64,000 nt of DNA from Intrasporangium calvum (GCF_028446585.1 NZ_JAPFQL010000006.1:1-64000), one strand, 5' to 3'. Positions 10,480-19,453 are shown, counted from the stretch's first letter. The notes: generated from the sequence alone by a model not told the origin. Translations and numbers: made by a program.

Positions 10480-10564
10480 CCACGATGAGGCAACCTTGGC
10501 GGGTGGCTGGGTGGTCCACCACGATGTGACGATCCTGATGCAACGCGGGGAGGCAGGGGAAACC

Positions 10565-11104
10565 GTGGGACGAGACGACTTCGATGCGTTCGTCGCAGCA
10601 CGGTCCACCCGACTGCTGCGGACCGCCTATCTCCTGACCCACGACCGCTCGCTCGCCGAGGACCTGCTCCAGACCGCGCTGGCCAAGGCCTGGTTTGCCT
10701 GGGGTCGGATCGACGGAGCGCCCGAGGCGTATGTCCGCCGGATCATGGTCAACACGTATGCGACGTGGTGGCGGCGCAGGTGGAACGGCGAGGAGCCGAC
10801 CGAGACGCTGCCCGAGCGGCACGGGGCCGGCGACCGCGCCGGCGACCGGGCCGGTCAGGTCGACGACCGGACAGACCTCTGGCGGGCGCTCGGGCGCCTC
10901 CCGAAACGGCAACGGGCCGTCGTCGTCCTCCGCTTCTACGAGGACCTGTCCGAGGCCGACACTGCCGAGCTGCTCGGCTGCACGGTCGGCACGGTGAAGA
11001 GCCAGGCGAGCAAGGCGCTGGCCAAGCTGCGCCTCGACCCGCGCCTGCTCGACTCCGCTGCCGCCACCCCCACCCCCGCGACCTCGAAGGAGGGCTCCCG
11101 ATGA
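10565..11104 (+). CDS. SigE-family (ECF-type) RNA polymerase sigma factor
   Basis: 179-residue sigma factor with region 2 (FVAARSTRLLRTAYLLTHD, then AEDLLQTALAKAW) and region 4 helix-turn-helix (DLSEADTAELLGCTVGTVKSQ). An ATG lies at 10538, but the GTG at 10565 follows a good GGCAGGGGA ribosome site and gives the usual N-terminus, so it was chosen. The upstream sequence GGCAACC at 10489-10495, with GGTCC about 18 bases on, could be an autoregulated ECF promoter; weak evidence. The gene overlaps the membrane partner gene by ATGA. Confidence 0.92.
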   Translation: MGRDDFDAFVAARSTRLLRTAYLLTHDRSLAEDLLQTALAKAWFAWGRIDGAPEAYVRRIMVNTYATWWRRRWNGEEPTETLPERHGAGDRAGDRAGQVDDRTDLWRALGRLPKRQRAVVVLRFYEDLSEADTAELLGCTVGTVKSQASKALAKLRLDPRLLDSAAATPTPATSKEGSR

Positions 11105-12180
11105 ACCTCACCGACCTGCGCACCGAGCTCGACCTGCGCGCCCAGGACCTCACCGCCGACGTGTCCTCCCTCACCGCTGGCATCGACGGGAAGGTGCGGG
11201 CGACCAAGCGACGCCGCGCAGCCGCGGGCGCCGTGGCCGCATGCGCCGTCGCAGCCGTCGTCGGCGTGGCCGCGTGGAACGGCATGGCGCGCCCGACCAC
11301 CCCGGCACCGGCAGGGACCAACCAGGTGACGCTCCGCGCTGACGCCCTGCCGTCCCGCCCCGTGGCCATGTCCCCGGACGACGTCGTCAAGGACGGGCTC
11401 CGCTTCCGGGCCGAGACTCTCGCCGGCGACCGCCTTGCTGCCGGCGCCATCGGCGACCTCGGCCAGCGGTCGCTGTCCGTCAGGTGGAGGCCCACGACCC
11501 AGCAGGTCACCTATGCCGTGGAGTGCTGGCTCCCGTCCGACACGGACGACGCGGCCTGGCGGAACACGTGGGTCCGGCACTCGGTCCCGGGCCAGGAGGG
11601 GCACTTCAGCAGCACGTGCCAGCGGGACCTGCCCGCTGACGGGGTGCTGGCCTCGACCGGAGTCACGCCGGGCGAGCCCGGTGAGGGTGACCGCACGCTG
11701 GGCGTCGGCATCGAGACGACCCTCGATGTCGAGCTCGTCGACCGGGACGGCAACCCGGTCACGAACCCCCAGGCCCGCATCGCGGTCGGTGTCTATGAGC
11801 TGGGCCCGCGCACTGAGGTCCATGACGAGACCCGCGCGGTCGTCCTCTCACTGCCCGAGGTCATCGAGCACCAGGGTTACGCCTACCAGCTGACGTCGAT
11901 GGTCGACGGCTCGCTGCCGACGACGACGCTGCCGAGCTCCGTGACCCCGACCGGCATGCCCTTCCTCGTCAGCTACGGGTCGACGACCGAGCCCGGCGAC
12001 GCCACTGCGCCGACCTTCTCCCTCACGGGTCTGGACGTCGAGGCCTCGTCCCTCGTCGGCGGTGGGTGGTCGACCGTGGCGCAGCCCGCGAGGGGAGCGG
12101 GACGCGTGGGACTGGCCCTCGAGGGACCGGCCCCCGAGTCCGGCACGGCGTTCATCGCGATCTACACGCCGGTGCCCTGA
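11101..12180 (+). CDS. Membrane-anchored partner of the SigE-type sigma factor
   Basis: 359-residue protein with one membrane segment at about residues 41-57 after a short basic cytoplasmic part, then a large extracytoplasmic domain not recognised as a known family. It has paired cysteines (ECWLPS and SSTCQRD). The start overlaps the sigma stop, so the two are co-translated. Position and topology suggest an anti-sigma or signal-sensing role, but no ZAS zinc motif is visible, so the function is inference. Confidence 0.7.
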   Translation: MNLTDLRTELDLRAQDLTADVSSLTAGIDGKVRATKRRRAAAGAVAACAVAAVVGVAAWNGMARPTTPAPAGTNQVTLRADALPSRPVAMSPDDVVKDGLRFRAETLAGDRLAAGAIGDLGQRSLSVRWRPTTQQVTYAVECWLPSDTDDAAWRNTWVRHSVPGQEGHFSSTCQRDLPADGVLASTGVTPGEPGEGDRTLGVGIETTLDVELVDRDGNPVTNPQARIAVGVYELGPRTEVHDETRAVVLSLPEVIEHQGYAYQLTSMVDGSLPTTTLPSSVTPTGMPFLVSYGSTTEPGDATAPTFSLTGLDVEASSLVGGGWSTVAQPARGAGRVGLALEGPAPESGTAFIAIYTPVP

Positions 12181-12217
12181 CCCTGCCGGTCGCTCACTCC
12201 TGACCCGGCTGTGTCGC

Positions 12218-12244
12218 GGGGATGTATCGCGGCGATATATCCCC
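12218..12244. promoter_or_regulatory. Palindromic operator upstream of padR-ino1
   Basis: Near-perfect palindrome: left arm GGGGATGTATCGC, right arm the complement of GGGGATATATCGC, centred at 12231. It lies 18 bases before the PadR start, where an autoregulatory PadR-family operator is expected. Confidence 0.7.
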
Positions 12245-12261
12245 AGTGTTAGAGTGCGAGC

Positions 12262-12897
12262 GTGGCCAAGAGTGAGCGACCGCAGAGCCGACGCGCGGCC
12301 CTGCTCGAGTTCGCGATCCTCGGCGTCCTGCACGACGGGGCGCTGCACGGCTATGAGCTGCGCAAGCGGCTCACCACCGCCCTCGGCATCTTCCGGGCCC
12401 TCTCCTACGGCTCCCTCTACCCGGCCCTGCGGAGCCTGGTCGAGTCGGGTCACATCTCCGAGACTCCCGAGCCGACCGCCTCGGGCAAGCGGCCGAGGAT
12501 CACCTACCAGCTGACCGCGGAGGGCAAGGAGCACTTCCAGGACCTCGTCGCGGCCAGCGGGCCCGACGCCTGGGACGACGACGACTTCGACGTCCGGCTC
12601 GCCTTCTTCTCCCGCACCGAGCGCGAGGTGCGCCTCCGCATCCTCGAGGGCCGCCGGTCGCGCCTCGAGGAGCGCCTCGCCCGGGTGCGCGAGGTCAGCG
12701 CCCGCAACCGCGAGCGGATGGACGCCTACACCCTCGCCCTCCAGCAGCACGGCGAGGAACGCGCGGAGCGAGAGGTCCGTTGGCTCGAGGAGCTCATCCG
12801 CGCCGAACGCCGCGCTGCGCTGGATCCCGGCCCAGCGGCATACGACCTCGATGTTCTTCCACCCACCAGAACGACCCCACCACAGAACAAGGAGTGA
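12262..12897 (+). CDS. PadR-family transcriptional regulator
   Basis: 211-residue regulator. The winged helix of PadR is at residues 13-85 (LLEFAILGVLHDGALHGYEL and SYGSLYPALRSLVESG), followed by a helical C-terminal dimerisation part rich in Arg and Glu. GTG start. It is directly upstream of ino1 with the ino1 ribosome site (AAGGAG) inside its last codons, so it probably controls inositol synthesis together with itself through the palindrome just upstream. A copy of the dispersed repeat is encoded near its C-terminus as GPAAY. Confidence 0.93.
   Translation: MAKSERPQSRRAALLEFAILGVLHDGALHGYELRKRLTTALGIFRALSYGSLYPALRSLVESGHISETPEPTASGKRPRITYQLTAEGKEHFQDLVAASGPDAWDDDDFDVRLAFFSRTEREVRLRILEGRRSRLEERLARVREVSARNRERMDAYTLALQQHGEERAEREVRWLEELIRAERRAALDPGPAAYDLDVLPPTRTTPPQNKE
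12829..12845 (-). repeat. Dispersed repeat copy inside padR
   Basis: GGCCCAGCGGCATACGA, translated as GPAAY near the C-terminus of the PadR protein. Confidence 0.65.
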
Positions 12898-12900
12898 TCC

Positions 12901-13992
12901 ATGGGATCCGTACGCGTCGCCATCGTCGGCGTCGGCAACTGCGCGAGCTCGCTCGTCCAGGGTGTCGAGTACTACAAGGACGCTGACCCGGCCGGCACCG
13001 TGCCGGGCCTCATGCACGTCCAGTTCGGCGACTACCACGTCAAGGACGTCGACTTCGTCGCGGCGTTCGACGTCGACGACAAGAAGGTCGGCAAGGACCT
13101 CTCGGAGGCGATCAACTCCTCCGAGAACAACACCATCAAGATCTGCGACGTCCCGACCTCGGGCGTCGAGGTCCAGCGCGGCCACACGCTCGACGGCCTG
13201 GGCAAGTACTACCGCCTGACGATCGACGAGTCGGCGGCGGAGCCGGTCGACGTCGTCCAGGTCCTCAAGGAGCGCAAGGTCGACGTCCTCGTCTCCTACC
13301 TCCCGGTGGGCTCCGAGGAGGCCGACAAGTTCTACGCGCAGTGCGCCATCGACGCGGGTGTCGCCTTCGTCAACGCCCTCCCGGTCTTCATCGCGAGCGA
13401 CCCGGAGTGGGCCGCGAAGTTCGAGGCCGCCGGCGTGCCGATCATCGGCGACGACATCAAGAGCCAGGTCGGCGCGACGATCACGCACCGCGTCATGGCC
13501 AAGCTCTTCGAGGACCGCGGCGTCACGCTCGACCGGACGTACCAGCTCAACGTCGGCGGCAACATGGACTTCAAGAACATGCTCGAGCGCGAGCGCCTCG
13601 AGTCCAAGAAGGTCTCCAAGACGCAGGCCGTGACCTCCAACCTCACCGGCGCCCTCGCCGACAAGAAGGAGGACCGCAACGTCCACATCGGCCCGTCGGA
13701 CTACGTCGCGTGGCTCGACGACCGCAAGTGGGCCTACGTCCGGCTCGAGGGGCGCGCCTTCGGTGACGTGCCGCTGAACCTCGAGTACAAGCTCGAGGTG
13801 TGGGACTCCCCCAACTCGGCCGGCATCATCATCGACGCGATCCGCGCTGCGAAGATCGCCAAGGACCGGGGCATCGGTGGCGCGCTCATCTCCGCGTCGT
13901 CCTACCTGATGAAGTCCCCGCCCGTGCAGCGCGAGGACACCGAGGGCCGCGCGAAGCTCGAGGCGTTCATCGCGGGCACCGAGGAGCGCTGA
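12901..13992 (+). CDS. ino1: Inositol-3-phosphate synthase
   Basis: 363-residue NAD-dependent enzyme converting glucose 6-phosphate to myo-inositol 3-phosphate, the first step to phosphatidylinositol and mycothiol. The Rossmann motif is VGVGNCASS at the N-terminus. The conserved core shows [15 protein letters not shown] and [12 protein letters not shown]. Co-transcribed with padR; strong ribosome site AAGGAG six bases before the ATG. Length fits the short actinobacterial form. Confidence 0.97.
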
Positions 13993-14010: not shown

Positions 14011-14024
14011 GTATGCCGCTGGGC
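14011..14024 (+). repeat. Dispersed repeat running into the ino1 terminator
   Basis: GTATGCCGCTGGGC; its last bases form the left arm of the GGGCCCGC terminator stem. Confidence 0.7.
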
Positions 14025-14091: not shown

Positions 14092-15414
14092 TCAGGGCCG
14101 GTCTGCGTCCCCCCGCTTGAGGACTGGGCGGCCGTTCACGGCATGGGCGACCGCGATCTGGTGGAGCGCCGCCCACGCCTCGCGCGGCTTCTCGTGGCTC
14201 CAGGCCATGCGCGCGGCGACCAGGCCGGCGACGAGCGGGGTCGCGAACGAGGTGCCGCTCCAGCTGGCCAGCCAGTTGGTGAACACCACATGGCCGGGCT
14301 GGTCGCCGGGGGTGTCCGGGTCGATGTCCTCGTAGTCGTAGCGGCCGTTGGGATAGCCGTTGACGACGTCCGTACCGCGCGCCCACACGTCGACCCAGCT
14401 GCCGTAGTTGCTGTAGCCGGCTGCGGTGGCGTCGTCGTCGTCGAGGGCGCCGACGGCCACGATCTCCGGATGGGGCAGACCAGCCGGGTAGAAGCCCACG
14501 TCCTGTGCGTCATTGCCTGCCGCGCAGACGAGCAGCGTGTCGGTCTTGGCGAGGTACTCGCGGAACACCTCGAGACCGAGCAGCTCACGGGCCGGGTCCT
14601 CACCCGGGGCGAGAGTGGTGCCCGCCGAGAGGCTGATGATGTCCGGTCCGGTCTGCAGGACCTGGTCGAGGATCGGACCCAGGTCGCTCGAGATCTGACC
14701 GCCGGAGGTGAGCAAGGCGGGCCAGACGCGAACCTCCGCATCGGGAGCCATGGTCGCCACCACCCCGCCGACGAAGGTGCCGTGCCCGCGGTAGTGGCCG
14801 TCGGCCTGTGGTCCGCCCGGCTGGCCCGAGACGTTGCTCAGCCAGTCGTGCTGCTCCACCACCGACTGGTGGAAGTCGGTGTCGATGACGGCCACCTTGA
14901 CCTTGCGGTCGGTCGGCCTCGGCGACCAGTCGGCCACAGCCGGCACCGGGCCACGGTCTTGCGAGACCAGGACCGGCTCGGTGGCGGGGCACGCCGACGC
15001 CGACGGGCAGATGTGCAGGACGAGGTCCTTGCTCGCGTCGATCTCGCGATCGCGCAGGTCGGAGATGACCGCATCCAGGTCCGCGCCGGCCGGGAGGGCG
15101 ATCGTCGTGACTCCACGTTGCGGCTCGCGGTCGACGGGCTCCTCGACCCGGGCTCCGTCGCCGATCGTGTCGCGCAGGATGCCGAGCACGCGCTCGACGT
15201 CTCGGTCACGCACGAGGATGACCTCGTCCCGATAGAGGTAGTCGACATCCTCATCCGTCGCGACCTCGCGGATCACCACGTTGCGGTCGACGTTCTCCGG
15301 TGCGCTCTGGAGACCCTCGACGATCCGGTCGAACTGGACCCGGAGCCGACCACGCTGGCGGCCGTTGGGGACCGAGGGTTCCCACCAATAGGGAAGATTC
15401 GGCTGGTTGCTCAT
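14092..15414 (-). CDS. Cytoplasmic S8 (subtilisin-like) serine protease
   Basis: 440-residue protease with a complete triad: Asp in VAVIDTD (near 176), His in GHGTFVGG (near 210) and Ser in SGTSFATP (near 386); the oxyanion Asn is in AAGND (near 299). There is no signal peptide or membrane anchor, so it probably acts inside the cell. Residues 1-165 hold charged alpha/beta modules that could serve as a propeptide or partner-binding domain. It is divergent from the TPR-CHAT gene, whose start lies 83 bases away, and the two probably share a control region. A role in a protease cascade is inference from context. Confidence 0.88.
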   Translation of the reverse strand: MSNQPNLPYWWEPSVPNGRQRGRLRVQFDRIVEGLQSAPENVDRNVVIREVATDEDVDYLYRDEVILVRDRDVERVLGILRDTIGDGARVEEPVDREPQRGVTTIALPAGADLDAVISDLRDREIDASKDLVLHICPSASACPATEPVLVSQDRGPVPAVADWSPRPTDRKVKVAVIDTDFHQSVVEQHDWLSNVSGQPGGPQADGHYRGHGTFVGGVVATMAPDAEVRVWPALLTSGGQISSDLGPILDQVLQTGPDIISLSAGTTLAPGEDPARELLGLEVFREYLAKTDTLLVCAAGNDAQDVGFYPAGLPHPEIVAVGALDDDDATAAGYSNYGSWVDVWARGTDVVNGYPNGRYDYEDIDPDTPGDQPGHVVFTNWLASWSGTSFATPLVAGLVAARMAWSHEKPREAWAALHQIAVAHAVNGRPVLKRGDADRP

Positions 15415-15497
15415 GACGCTGCTGCCATCATGTGGAGGGTCAGGGGGTGCCTGTCAGTCATTGCAGCTCTCCAGTCAAGCGAAGGATGTTGTCCGTG

Positions 15498-18233
15498 ATG
15501 CCGGAGTCCCGAAGCGGGCGACCTGATACACGTGCGGCGGGGAAGCCTCGTGGACCCGCGCCCGAAGGTGCCGACGATCCGGCCTCATTGCTCCCCCTCG
15601 CAATATCCCGGCCGCAGTCGGCCCTCGCAAGCGCTATGCGGATCATCGACACCTCGGAGGATGCGTCCGCCCTCTCGTTCGCGCACCAGGCCGCCGCCAT
15701 CGTCCACCGCGACGCCGGGCGCAGTGACGAGTCCGTGACGCACGGGTTCGCCGCGCTTCGCCTCGCCCGGGAGGTCAGCGCGCTCCGGCAGGCAGACGTC
15801 ATGGCGACCCTTGGCGTCGTGCTCGCCTATGCCGGCCGCACCAGGGATGGCCTGCGCCAGTTCGACGCGGCCAAGGAGCTGACGCCCGCGGCCGACCTGC
15901 CCCGGCTGCTGCTGCGCCGCGCGCACGTCCTGGCCCTGGTCGGGCGGGACCGCGAGGCGCACGCTGACCTCACCCAGGCCATCACGGGCAGCCGCGCCGT
16001 CGAGGACCGGCTCTGGGAGGCACGCGCCCTGAACAACCGGGTCGTCGTCAGCATCTCGCTGGGCCTGGTCGACGACGCCGACGAGGACGCCCAGCTGGCG
16101 GAGCAGCTCTTCGAGTCCCTCGGTCAGGAGTTCGAGGCGACCGAGGTCCTGCACAACCGCGCAGCCACCGCGATGCTGCGTGGGGACCTGCCCCGAGCCC
16201 TGGAGCTGTTCGACCGGGCCGCCGACCGCTATGCCGCCCTCGGCAGGAGCGGTCCTGAGCTCGACCTCGACCGCGTCGAGGCCCTCCTCACGGCCGGGCT
16301 CTACGACGAGGCCGAGACGGTCGCCGTCGAGGGGCTCGCCCGCCCCGACCTGGCTCCGGTCAAGCGGGCCGAGCTGGTCCTGGCCCAGGCCCGGGCCGCC
16401 CTCGCCACCGGCAAGGCGGCGCTGGCCGGAGAGCGGGCCAACGCAGCAGCGGAGCTGTTCAGCGAGCAACTGCGGGACGCGTGGGTCGACCGGGCCAGGC
16501 TCCTGCGTCTGCGCGCCCAGCATGTGGCCACCCATCCGGAGCTCCAGGCCTGGATGCTCGAGCCCCGCGAGGCGCCGGAGCTGTCGGCCCGGTCCCGCAT
16601 CGCTCAGGAGAAGCGGCTCCTCCGGGAGGCGGACGACCTCGTGGCGTCGTTGCGCGCCTCCGGGTCCCTCGACCTGCCCATGGCCCTGCTCCTGCGCGGG
16701 CGGATCGCCCGCTACGCCGGGCTCCCCGAGGTGGCGCGCGACAGCCTGACCGCCGCTGCGGCCGCGCGCCGGTCGGGGCCACCCCTCTCCCGCGCCGCGG
16801 GGTGGCTCGCGGCGGCCCTGCTCGCCGACCAGTCCGGTGACCGTCGCGCGCTGTATGCCGCCTGCCGGCACGGCCTCGACGCGGTCGACGAACATCGGGC
16901 CATCCTCGGCGACCTCGAGCTGCGAGCGCTCGCGAGTGGCCACGGCATCGAGTTCGCCCGCTTGGCAGTCGCTTCCGCTGTGCGCTCCGGTCGCGCCCGT
17001 GACCTCTGGTGGTGGGCCGAGCGGTGGCGGGCCGCCGCCCTCAACGGCACGATCACGAGACCTGACGACCCCGCCCTGCGCCGCGACGTGGCCGCCCTGC
17101 GCGACGTGACCCGGCGACTCGACACCCAGACGGATGGGGATCCGGCTCTCCTTGCCACCTGGCAGGCAGAACGCAGGCGGCTCGAGTCGTCGATCCGGCA
17201 CGCCCACCACCGGATGCGCTCAGACCACGACAGCGACTTCGGCGTCCCGGCGGGCCTCGATCTCGACGCCGTGCTGGCCGAGCTGGGTGACGGCGTCCTG
17301 CTCACCTTCGTCAACGACGGTGGCAGCCTGCACCTCGTCATGGTGTGTCGGCGGCGGGTCCGCCACCTCGAGGTCGGCAGCGCTGCCAGCGCCGAGAAGG
17401 AGGCCGACTTCGCCCGGTTCGCGCTGCGCCGTGCGGCGTCCGGCCGGCTCGTCGACCTGGATGCAGCGGGGGCCCGTCTCGAGGCGGCGCTGCTGGGCCC
17501 CCACGAATCGACGCTCCGCCAGCTCGTCGGCGACGACGACCGGCCCGTCATCGTCGTGCCACCAGCCGGGCTCCTCACCGCCCCGTGGGGCCTGCTGCCA
17601 CTGTTCGCGCGCTCCCCACTGTCGGTCAGCCCCTCCGTCACCCAGTGGCTCAAGGCCCGACGCTCCGGCCGGGGCCGGGACGCCGGGCACGTCTCCCTCA
17701 TCACCGGTCCCGACCTGAGCACGCGCGAGTCCGAAGTCACGAACCTCAGCCCCATCCATCACGGTGCACTCGTCCTGCCAGCGGACAAGGCGACGGTTGC
17801 GGCCGCCCTCGAGATCCTGGACGGGGCCGGGCTGGCCCACATCGCCGCGCACGGCACCTTCCGAGCCGAGGCGCCGCTCTTCTCGTCACTCCAGCTGGCG
17901 GACGGCCCGCTCACGGTGCACGACCTCGAGGAGCTGCAGCAGCCGCCCCGGTCGATCATCCTCTCCGCCTGCGACTCGGGCGGGGCCGCTCCGATCGGCC
18001 CGCACGAGGCACTGGGTCTCGTGTCAGCCCTCCTGGGCATGGGCACGGCCGACGTCCTGGCCAGCGTCGTGCCGGTCAACGACCAGGCCACGCTCAGCGT
18101 CATGGGTCACGTGCATGGTGTCGCCGGCCGGGGTGGGACCCTCACCGAGGGCTGGCTCGCAGCGCGGAAGGCCGCCGCGGGCGACGTCCTGCACGCCGCG
18201 ACCGCCGCATCGTTCACGGCGTGGGGTGCCTGA
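15498..18233 (+). CDS. TPR-CHAT protein, caspase-like protease
   Basis: About 911 residues. Residues roughly 50-520 are helical tetratricopeptide-type repeats (for example ATEVLHNRAATAMLRGDLPRA). The C-terminal CHAT domain (about 610-911) carries His in HIAAHGTF (near 783) and Cys in LSACDSGG (near 822), the caspase-like dyad, both intact. The GTG at 15432 and ATG at 15486 have no usable ribosome site. The ATG at 15498 (or GTG 15495) lies 9-12 bases after AAGG. The gene ends 6 bases from the convergent small protein gene. CHAT proteases act in prokaryotic conflict and cell-death systems; the trigger and target here are unknown. Confidence 0.88.
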   Translation: MPESRSGRPDTRAAGKPRGPAPEGADDPASLLPLAISRPQSALASAMRIIDTSEDASALSFAHQAAAIVHRDAGRSDESVTHGFAALRLAREVSALRQADVMATLGVVLAYAGRTRDGLRQFDAAKELTPAADLPRLLLRRAHVLALVGRDREAHADLTQAITGSRAVEDRLWEARALNNRVVVSISLGLVDDADEDAQLAEQLFESLGQEFEATEVLHNRAATAMLRGDLPRALELFDRAADRYAALGRSGPELDLDRVEALLTAGLYDEAETVAVEGLARPDLAPVKRAELVLAQARAALATGKAALAGERANAAAELFSEQLRDAWVDRARLLRLRAQHVATHPELQAWMLEPREAPELSARSRIAQEKRLLREADDLVASLRASGSLDLPMALLLRGRIARYAGLPEVARDSLTAAAAARRSGPPLSRAAGWLAAALLADQSGDRRALYAACRHGLDAVDEHRAILGDLELRALASGHGIEFARLAVASAVRSGRARDLWWWAERWRAAALNGTITRPDDPALRRDVAALRDVTRRLDTQTDGDPALLATWQAERRRLESSIRHAHHRMRSDHDSDFGVPAGLDLDAVLAELGDGVLLTFVNDGGSLHLVMVCRRRVRHLEVGSAASAEKEADFARFALRRAASGRLVDLDAAGARLEAALLGPHESTLRQLVGDDDRPVIVVPPAGLLTAPWGLLPLFARSPLSVSPSVTQWLKARRSGRGRDAGHVSLITGPDLSTRESEVTNLSPIHHGALVLPADKATVAAALEILDGAGLAHIAAHGTFRAEAPLFSSLQLADGPLTVHDLEELQQPPRSIILSACDSGGAAPIGPHEALGLVSALLGMGTADVLASVVPVNDQATLSVMGHVHGVAGRGGTLTEGWLAARKAAAGDVLHAATAASFTAWGA

Positions 18234-18239
18234 CCCGAC

Positions 18240-18722
18240 TCAGCCCACGTCGAACCACGTGGTCGCCATGACGCGTTCGCCGGCCCGCTCGAGCACGATC
18301 CGCGCCAGGCCGAGCGGCACCCGCTCGAAGCTGAAGCGCTCGTCCTCGAGGTCGACGGTGCGCGTCAGCGACCGGGTCTCGAGGATCACGTGGGCGCCCT
18401 CCGCCAGCGTGCCCGACTCGTCGGTCACGACGCCGAGGATCCGGCCGAAGTCGCCCCGCCAGGTGACGTCCAGCTCGATCGACACGGACCCGTGCTCAAA
18501 GACGAGCAGGCGCGACGTGCCCCGGGCGCTGTCCGTGACGCGGAGCGCCGCGGACATGGCCTCGCTGGCCAGCTTCATCAAGGCGGTGTCGGCGTGGTGC
18601 AGGGCGAAGGCCGCCCGGCCCAGCTCGACGACGTCGGGGGGCACGGGATCGAGCACGGCGACGATGGAGCCGAGTTGCTCCAGGAGCTCGATGTCGTCAG
18701 GGTGCAGGTCGTGGGTGGTCAT
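18240..18722 (-). CDS. Small protein with C-terminal beta-sandwich, sigma-coupled
   Basis: 160 residues. The N-terminal part (LDPVPPDVVELGRAAFALHHAD) is helical. The C-terminal half (GVVTDESGTLAEGAHVILE...) reads like a carboxypeptidase-regulatory or Cna-B type beta-sandwich. No membrane segment or signal peptide. Its ATG overlaps the sigma factor stop (ATGA), so it is co-translated with it, and its 3' end meets the CHAT gene head-on. It may be an anti-sigma-like or adaptor protein of the protease system; this is inference and no family is firmly recognised. Confidence 0.7.
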   Translation of the reverse strand: MTTHDLHPDDIELLEQLGSIVAVLDPVPPDVVELGRAAFALHHADTALMKLASEAMSAALRVTDSARGTSRLLVFEHGSVSIELDVTWRGDFGRILGVVTDESGTLAEGAHVILETRSLTRTVDLEDERFSFERVPLGLARIVLERAGERVMATTWFDVG

Positions 18723-19309
18723 GAGGGTCGACCCCCTCCGCTCTCAAATGCGTAGCCGGTGTCGGAGACCAGTGACCGCAGCGTGGAGAGGCAACGCATG
18801 CGCGTGGGGCCGATGGAGCCCACGGGCATGCCCAGAGAGGCGGACACCTCTGCATAGTTGGGTCGGTCGCACACCATGAGGACGCGCAACAGCCGTTGGC
18901 ACCGCTCTGACAGCCTGCTGAAGCAGGACCAGAGCTGAACGTCGCGCTCCTTCTCGAGGAGCGAGGCGTCCAGTGCCGCCGACTCGACGTCGACGAGCAT
19001 CGGCCCGAGATCGTCGTCGCGGACGAGGACGTCACGTCCGCGCCGTCGCAACAGCGAGAGGCATTCGTGCCGAGCCGTCGTGGCCAGCCACCCGGGGAGT
19101 GCTTCGGGCTGCTCGATCCGGTGCAGGTTGTCGAGCAGGCGAAGCCAGGTGTTCTGCACGACGTCAGCGGCGTCGTCCATGGAGAGCCGGTGCGCCCGTC
19201 CGACCGACCAGAGCAGGCTCGAGAACCGCTCGACGATCGCGTTCCACGCCTCGGGGTCTCCTTGGGCCGCGGCGGTCACGAGCTCGGTGAGACCGCTGGG
19301 TTCGTGCAT
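18719..19309 (-). CDS. ECF-type sigma-70 family sigma factor
   Basis: 196 residues. Region 2 is visible (DPEAWNAIVERFSSLLWSV, then DAADVVQNTWLRLLDNL) and region 4 as well (CDRPNYAEVSASLGMPVGSIGPTR). Upstream in-frame ATGs exist, but the ATG at 19309 (MHEPSGLTEL) has GAGAGG eight bases before it. It overlaps the 160-residue gene, forming a two-gene operon adjoining the CHAT and S8 protease genes, and may control their expression. No cognate promoter motif could be identified by eye. Confidence 0.9.
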   Translation of the reverse strand: MHEPSGLTELVTAAAQGDPEAWNAIVERFSSLLWSVGRAHRLSMDDAADVVQNTWLRLLDNLHRIEQPEALPGWLATTARHECLSLLRRRGRDVLVRDDDLGPMLVDVESAALDASLLEKERDVQLWSCFSRLSERCQRLLRVLMVCDRPNYAEVSASLGMPVGSIGPTRMRCLSTLRSLVSDTGYAFESGGGRPS

Positions 19310-19406
19310 GTCACGCCTCTCTCTCAGCGTGTTCATCGTAGGTCTCACGGTCTAGAGAGTCGGTAGGAACCGGTCAGATACACCCCAACAGGAAGGCCGC
19401 GCTGGG

Positions 19407-19453
19407 AGCCAGCCCAGCGGCATACGGAAGAAGGTGTATGCCGCTGGGCTCGG
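19407..19453. repeat. Dispersed repeat, inverted pair
   Basis: Reverse copy AGCCCAGCGGCATACGG (19411-19427) and forward copy GTATGCCGCTGGGCT (19436-19450) form a strong hairpin. It lies downstream of the DUF4190 gene and upstream of the sigma factor operon, in the position of a terminator for the former. Confidence 0.75.

Follow-up and report, generated by a model that had tools for sequence, protein, structure and literature searches.

Four genes lie side by side at positions 14092 to 19309 of the 64-kb stretch of DNA from the soil actinobacterium Intrasporangium calvum analysed here (the window): a gene for an S8 subtilase, a divergently transcribed gene for a TPR-CHAT caspase-like protease and, convergent with the latter, a two-gene unit encoding an ECF sigma factor and a protein of 160 amino acids. 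The features of the locus are as follows.

14092..15414, minus strand: intracellular S8 subtilase of 440 aa, modelled as a pro-enzyme (ORF; Pfam S8, 2e-22)
15013..15228, minus strand: propeptide-like domain of the subtilase, residues about 63–134 (beta-alpha-beta elements at 57–134 in the AlphaFold model)
15500..15531, minus strand: putative ECF54-type promoter of the subtilase gene, GTGTATCA-N16-CTCC (17.2 bits)
15432..18233, plus strand: TPR-CHAT caspase-like protease of up to 933 aa, start uncertain (ORF; Pfam CHAT, 1e-20, and TPR)
17850..17852, plus strand: codon for the CHAT catalytic histidine, His807 (invariant, 113/113)
17970..17972, plus strand: codon for the CHAT catalytic cysteine, Cys847 (invariant, 113/113)
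18240..18722, minus strand: 160-aa adaptor, proposed soluble anti-sigma factor (ORF; AlphaFold pLDDT 84.8)
18719..19309, minus strand: ECF sigma factor, ECF54-like (ORF; Sigma70_r2, 5e-12; TIGR02937, 2e-16)
19353..19383, minus strand: putative ECF54-type promoter of the sigma-adaptor unit, GTGTATCT-N16-CTCT (22.2 bits)

The sigma and 160-aa genes overlap by 4 bases, and 6 bases separate the CHAT stop codon from the 160-aa gene. The CHAT frame is open from a GTG at 15432, with an ATG at 15498 as the alternative that leaves an 83-base gap to the subtilase gene; the start is uncertain because conservation between genera sets in at about residue 52 of the long frame and, whichever start is taken, its first codons contain the subtilase promoter. 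ORF coordinates, Pfam matches and alignments returned the four genes, their gaps and their active sites exactly as the initial annotation had given them. Its statements that both active sites are intact and that neither protease is secreted held as well: His807 and Cys847 are invariant in all 113 CHAT homologues, as are Asp178, His211, Asn301 and Ser389 in all 109 homologues of the subtilase, and all four proteins of the cluster have hydrophobicity too low for a signal peptide or a membrane anchor (maximum KD19 at most 1.7). CRISPR had likewise been called absent, and we saw no CRISPR-like array or repeats within the 64-kb window and no Cas7-11-like effector among the flanking genes examined (INO1, PadR, DUF4190, PP2C and polyA polymerase). 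A large ORF at 11848–13686 on the minus strand was discarded as antisense to INO1.

Conservation and genomic setting of the cluster

A single set of 198 genomes of the class was searched with profiles of the four families. The sigma factor occurred in 68 of these genomes, the CHAT protease in 76, the family of the 160-aa protein in 69 and the S8 subtilase in 63. At least one family is present in 79 genomes, 62 of which carry all four, with pairwise co-occurrence across the 198 genomes at Fisher p values, which ignore phylogeny, of 1e-36 to 3e-46. The initial annotation had proposed conservation of the neighbourhood as a check on the cluster and taken a lack of co-occurrence as the result that would speak against it; the outcome of the survey was decisively the opposite. 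Judged by this comparison, the four genes are a real, widely conserved unit. All four lie together in at least six gene orders among 114 loci. One is that of the window, where CHAT diverges from S8 and converges on sigma-adaptor; others are a straight operon in the order S8-sigma-adaptor-CHAT and a Streptomyces type with adaptor, sigma and S8 divergent from CHAT. In family f38 (for example genomes G113, G224 and G176) the S8-CHAT and sigma-adaptor pairs are unlinked on the chromosome, yet they co-occur. At one locus of Nonomuraea endophytica (L112), a single CHAT gene is common to two inverted S8-sigma-adaptor sets.

In most Intrasporangiaceae genera with the window layout the cluster adjoins INO1, as it does in the window, in the congener G001 and in Intrasporangium, Humibacillus, Terracoccus, Terrabacter and others, and this fixed chromosomal place implies that it is an old chromosomal resident. 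No cluster relatives were found on viral contigs and nothing resembling the full cluster on plasmids; a sigma match on a Streptomyces plasmid (H8) proved to lie within a biosynthetic cluster rather than a four-gene module and was set aside.

The initial annotation had been unable to name this arrangement as characterised. However, sigma factors of the actinobacterial ECF54 group have already been described, from genomic context alone, as encoded near subtilase, CHAT and carboxypeptidase-like genes (PMC8999054, which cites Casas-Pastor 2021 and Huang 2015). The four-gene cluster fits this group, an assignment likewise made from gene context: its ECF sigma factor (Sigma70_r2, TIGR02937) comes with no hydrophobic segment and thus no anchored anti-sigma factor, and by Pfam its neighbours comprise a subtilase, a CHAT protein and a carboxypeptidase-like protein (CarboxypepD_reg, matched by 7 of 15 family members, at up to 1.9e-6, and below threshold by the window protein). 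The other gene orders and, as described below, the promoter, the zymogen-like subtilase, the fold of the adaptor and the linked RNA do not appear in the available text of that source, and a search of the literature found no experimental study of an ECF54-type module.

Architecture of the two proteases and the sigma-adaptor pair

In the AlphaFold model of the subtilase (pLDDT 88.5, with a low-confidence linker at about 135–150), the N-terminal domain aligned with the propeptides of 3whi, 2e1p and PCSK9. Since the whole model finds its best structural matches among pro-subtilisins in unprocessed form, with the alignment starting at residue 63 (Z 28–30), this domain appears propeptide-like. The subtilase therefore models as an intracellular zymogen, with a catalytic triad and a propeptide-like domain predicted to inhibit it. 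Like pro-Tk-subtilisin and pro-subtilisin E, it holds propeptide and catalytic domain in one fold; unlike them, it is made without a signal peptide, from a gene that is divergent from a CHAT gene and preceded by an ECF54-type promoter. Operon-type subtilases (loci L053, L054, L057, L060, L062, L064 and L066) carry tandem aromatic- or glycine-rich repeats between propeptide and catalytic domain (GYGDGV, GYWGGVG, GHWGGIG, GAWGATG), in varying copy number.

When the CHAT profile was compared with solved structures, it matched the Csx29-type CHAT protein 8d9f (E 9e-5), with the CHAT core alone aligning, and the NCBIfam Csx29 model scored 12.5 bits on the TPR-CHAT protein against a cut-off of 300.

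The sigma factor conserves a region-4 motif, MPxGSIGPTRxRCL. The adaptor gene lies directly downstream of it in 66 of 68 places, and the two proteins show the highest distance correlation of any pair in the cluster (r 0.92, versus 0.85–0.88 for the other pairs). In its AlphaFold model, the 160-aa protein consists of a helical hairpin (8–21 and 29–59), a flexible linker and an eight-strand sandwich that aligned to Ig/Fn3-like folds, the structural comparison covering mainly residues 68–160; several nearly invariant columns of the family fall in or beside the linker. Neither Pfam nor the 160-aa profile run against the sequences of solved structures, which gave no convincing match, revealed a recognisable anti-sigma domain or family in this protein, whose two N-terminal helices are modelled. 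We take the 160-aa protein most likely to be a soluble anti-sigma factor that would bind sigma through its hairpin, although the want of a recognisable anti-sigma domain speaks against this.

A shared promoter motif and its outputs

Dyad counting upstream of the sigma genes led to the motif TGTATCA-N16-CTCT, which many genera, irrespective of gene order, carry upstream of the first gene in the sigma unit. A weight matrix built from 29 non-redundant instances, with a site threshold of at least 12 bits, recovered the motif in 104 of 150 leading sigma or S8 units, as against 1.1% in shuffled sequence, a result that is partly circular since the training set overlaps the scored loci. More weight is therefore given to independent sites, namely that of the window S8 gene, a pair beside pheA in the same genome (23.8 and 18.4 bits) and the pheA pair of G001. 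The window S8 site was excluded from training on account of its -10 box, CTCC, and is identical in G001. Both strands of the 64-kb window contain exactly two sites of at least 12 bits, the ones before sigma and before S8. Before CHAT the motif was found in 0 of 109 genes, and in Kribbella-type loci the subtilase is without it.

With the motif preceding both the sigma-adaptor unit and the subtilase gene, the suggestion in the initial annotation that the sigma factor adds transcriptional control gains substance. Sigma autoregulation is well supported by these promoters, and the targets of the sigma factor very probably include its own unit and the subtilase gene but not CHAT, a pattern that fits CHAT as a pre-made sensor.

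When one mismatch was allowed, the motif occurred at four sites in the I. calvum genome: the sigma promoter, two intragenic positions (L240 and L241) and a site beside pheA (C57:34614, locus L239). Strict matches inside coding frames (for example L175, L179 and L182) were taken as chance. Elsewhere, an ECF54-type promoter lies 52–54 bases upstream of metacaspase (Peptidase C14) genes in two genera (L186 1582–2406 and L180 1580–2404; genomes G021 and G028). At L237 and L228, in g76 genomes, one stands ahead of G-rich repeats, CACGGGGGA, and a terminator-like hairpin; G runs there number 10 and 12, versus 4.4 and 5.0 in shuffles. The motif also lies 8 bases upstream of an ATPase gene (AAA_16-like, below cut-off; L236 3–1493, minus strand, G241), and a similar site occurs at G109:C7:113331.

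The two ECF54-type promoters beside pheA point away from each other, and this pair recurs in G001 at 189866/189898. Several operon-type relatives carry the entire cluster next to pheA, with the same divergent promoters serving S8 on one side and an RNA on the other. One promoter of the I. calvum pair heads a 173-nt sequence without a conserved reading frame that ends in a terminator-like hairpin; related sequences were sought only where the promoter led, and the putative RNA was located at L239 1500–1700, at L055, L057, L062, L064, L066 and L067, and in G001 from about 189866 downward. Folding of the whole transcript gave a z-score of -5.2 against dinucleotide shuffles, a fairer measure than the z-scores of short segments, which are biased because the segments were picked after folding. 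Seven loci have in common an outer stem, a bulge rich in G and an inner hairpin whose loop is likewise G-rich. The outer stem was missed by a MAFFT/RNAalifold alignment and recovered by register-by-register comparison, and among three sequences of equal register it shows compensatory changes in 6 of 12 pairs and 0 broken pairs. Between the I. calvum and G001 copies the stems differ while the main G tracts are unchanged; G-run enrichment in the divergent transcripts was not significant in most single loci. Rfam gave no family match for the pheA-side RNA in L239, L064, L062, L055 or L066. It appears that the sigma module also switches on a putative, previously undescribed structured non-coding RNA.

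The other pheA-side promoter heads a gene for a 130-aa protein (L239 989–1381, minus strand; in G001 about 189980–190367, plus strand) that shows 40% identity (E 1e-18) with operon-type subtilases in their propeptide domains. Differences between the I. calvum and G001 genes number 18, 21 and 56 at the three codon positions, and this excess at third positions indicates that the gene is maintained as coding in the two species. A role for this propeptide homologue as an inhibitor of the subtilase is possible.

The congener G001 also carries a 6C RNA (RF01066, 47.8 bits). As 6C-family RNAs act on G tracts via C-rich loops (PMC10470900), titration of 6C RNA by the G-loop RNA, through a proposed pairing, is an attractive idea; computed RNA duplex energies with 6C were uninformative at such G+C content.

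A proposed protease-gated sigma switch

The conserved module, with its intact active sites, shared promoter, zymogen-like subtilase and near-obligate sigma-adaptor pairing, lends itself to a model in which it acts as a cytoplasmic, CRISPR-free, protease-gated ECF sigma switch, a model that we consider evenly poised between right and wrong. The sigma factor and the 160-aa protein would be co-translated, and we infer that the 160-aa protein binds sigma and holds it, as an anti-sigma factor, by its helical hairpin. TPR-CHAT, made from a promoter outside sigma control, would be the sensor, its TPR repeats recognising a cytoplasmic danger signal. Once activated, it would cleave the 160-aa partner, the probable site being the linker that joins hairpin and sandwich, and so free the sigma factor. 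Free sigma would then transcribe TGTATCA-N16-CTCT promoters, namely those of its own unit (a positive feedback) and of the pro-subtilase, and in the window genus also those of the G-loop RNA and the subtilase-propeptide homologue at pheA. The pro-subtilase, processed by CHAT or by itself, would become an executor or amplifier, and the free propeptide homologue might serve as a brake on it. If this is true, a caspase-like protease would control bacterial transcription independently of CRISPR, which would suggest where the sigma branch of the type III-E CRISPR protease system originated. A sigma group defined by context only would become a testable circuit with two promoters, an inhibitor candidate, two intact proteases and an RNA output, in a module widespread in Actinomycetes, Streptomyces included, where genetics is feasible.

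The closest described parallel is the type III-E system Cas7-11/Csx29/Csx30/CASP-sigma (Craspase), in which the TPR-CHAT protease Csx29 cleaves Csx30, an inhibitor of the ECF factor CASP-sigma (PMC10028731). The initial annotation had aptly drawn the comparison with the CRISPR-linked TPR-CHAT protease, but had underused it, as the action of Csx29, too, reaches an ECF sigma factor by way of a small inhibitory protein. Both systems combine a TPR-CHAT protease, an ECF sigma factor and a partner protein, and positive autoregulation has been proposed for Craspase as for the cluster. The cluster differs in showing no CRISPR array or Cas7-11, in its extra pro-subtilase, in having a 160-aa Ig-like protein in place of Csx30 and in a homology to Csx29 confined to the protease core. 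With no CRISPR parts nearby and a failed match to the Csx29 model, the cluster falls outside the Craspase family. Its principle, the protease-gated release of an ECF sigma factor, is shared with RseA/DegS-type anti-sigma proteolysis, although here all parts are cytoplasmic and there is neither a membrane anti-sigma factor nor a site-2 protease. The fullest version of the model, in which CHAT cleaves an Ig-like anti-sigma factor, the freed ECF54 sigma drives pro-subtilase, propeptide inhibitor and a G-loop RNA that titrates 6C, so that one proteolytic event would reprogram both protein turnover and post-transcriptional control, and the type III-E protease system is a CRISPR-captured relative, is decidedly unlikely to be correct in every part.

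Three other readings place the same genes in a different logic. The ECF54 description proposes, from gene context, that these sigma factors are protease-controlled and have no anti-sigma factor (PMC8999054). Applied here, one or both proteases would degrade sigma until a signal halts proteolysis, and the 160-aa protein would be an adaptor presenting sigma to them, a role to which its Ig-like binding sandwich is suited; a subtilase gene under the same promoter would then provide negative feedback. Autoactivation of sigma and a near-invariant, co-translated partner are nevertheless better suited to an inhibitor, and CHAT stands outside sigma control (0/109), so that we regard destruction of sigma as a rather doubtful explanation.

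An abortive-infection or programmed-death role, in which CHAT would sense infection and activate a pro-subtilase that kills the cell, with sigma topping up the subtilase, draws on the fact that some described conflict systems count subtilases among their several peptidases (PMC7159879) and on the metacaspase gene behind the same promoter in two relatives. Set against this are the fixed site beside INO1 in most Intrasporangiaceae with this layout, the absence from viral contigs, the lack of anything like the full cluster on plasmids and of any toxin or pore gene, and the results of PADLOC, which matched no described defence system and returned a generic subtilase hit (3e-10) and weak BovA and IetS matches. 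A conflict or cell-death role, which the initial annotation had put forward together with a phage challenge, thus finds no direct support in the present comparisons; such a role is possible, and the killing scheme itself unlikely. The module might instead be a developmental or stress regulator that answers protein damage or envelope stress, its main output being a G-loop RNA that captures 6C and relieves 6C targets. The ECF54-type promoter and conserved G-loop RNA beside pheA in I. calvum and its relatives, the 6C RNA of the congener and the action of 6C-family C-rich loops on G tracts are all in keeping with this, but G-rich loops could have other partners and the RNA-RNA pairing is putative, which leaves this the most improbable of the readings considered.

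Several further elements of the genome were recorded apart from the cluster. Other CHAT genes (C101 90–4344 and C140 4842–12310) adjoin metacaspase-like (C14) genes. The window contains a second ECF sigma gene at 10496–11104 on the plus strand, with regions 2 and 4 intact, upstream of PadR-INO1 and syntenic in several relatives. A 14-mer, GTATGCCGCTGGGC, which occurs 612 times in the genome (0 for the reversed control), has 19 sites with at most one mismatch between 1138 and 63970 of the window (expected 0.03), for example at 14011–14024, 19412–19425 and 19436–19449, the last two forming an inverted pair at 19412–19449. The copies at 14011 and 19412/19436 were ruled out as the border of a mobile element because of the 612 genomic copies; the 14-mer is a dispersed REP-like or terminator-like element.
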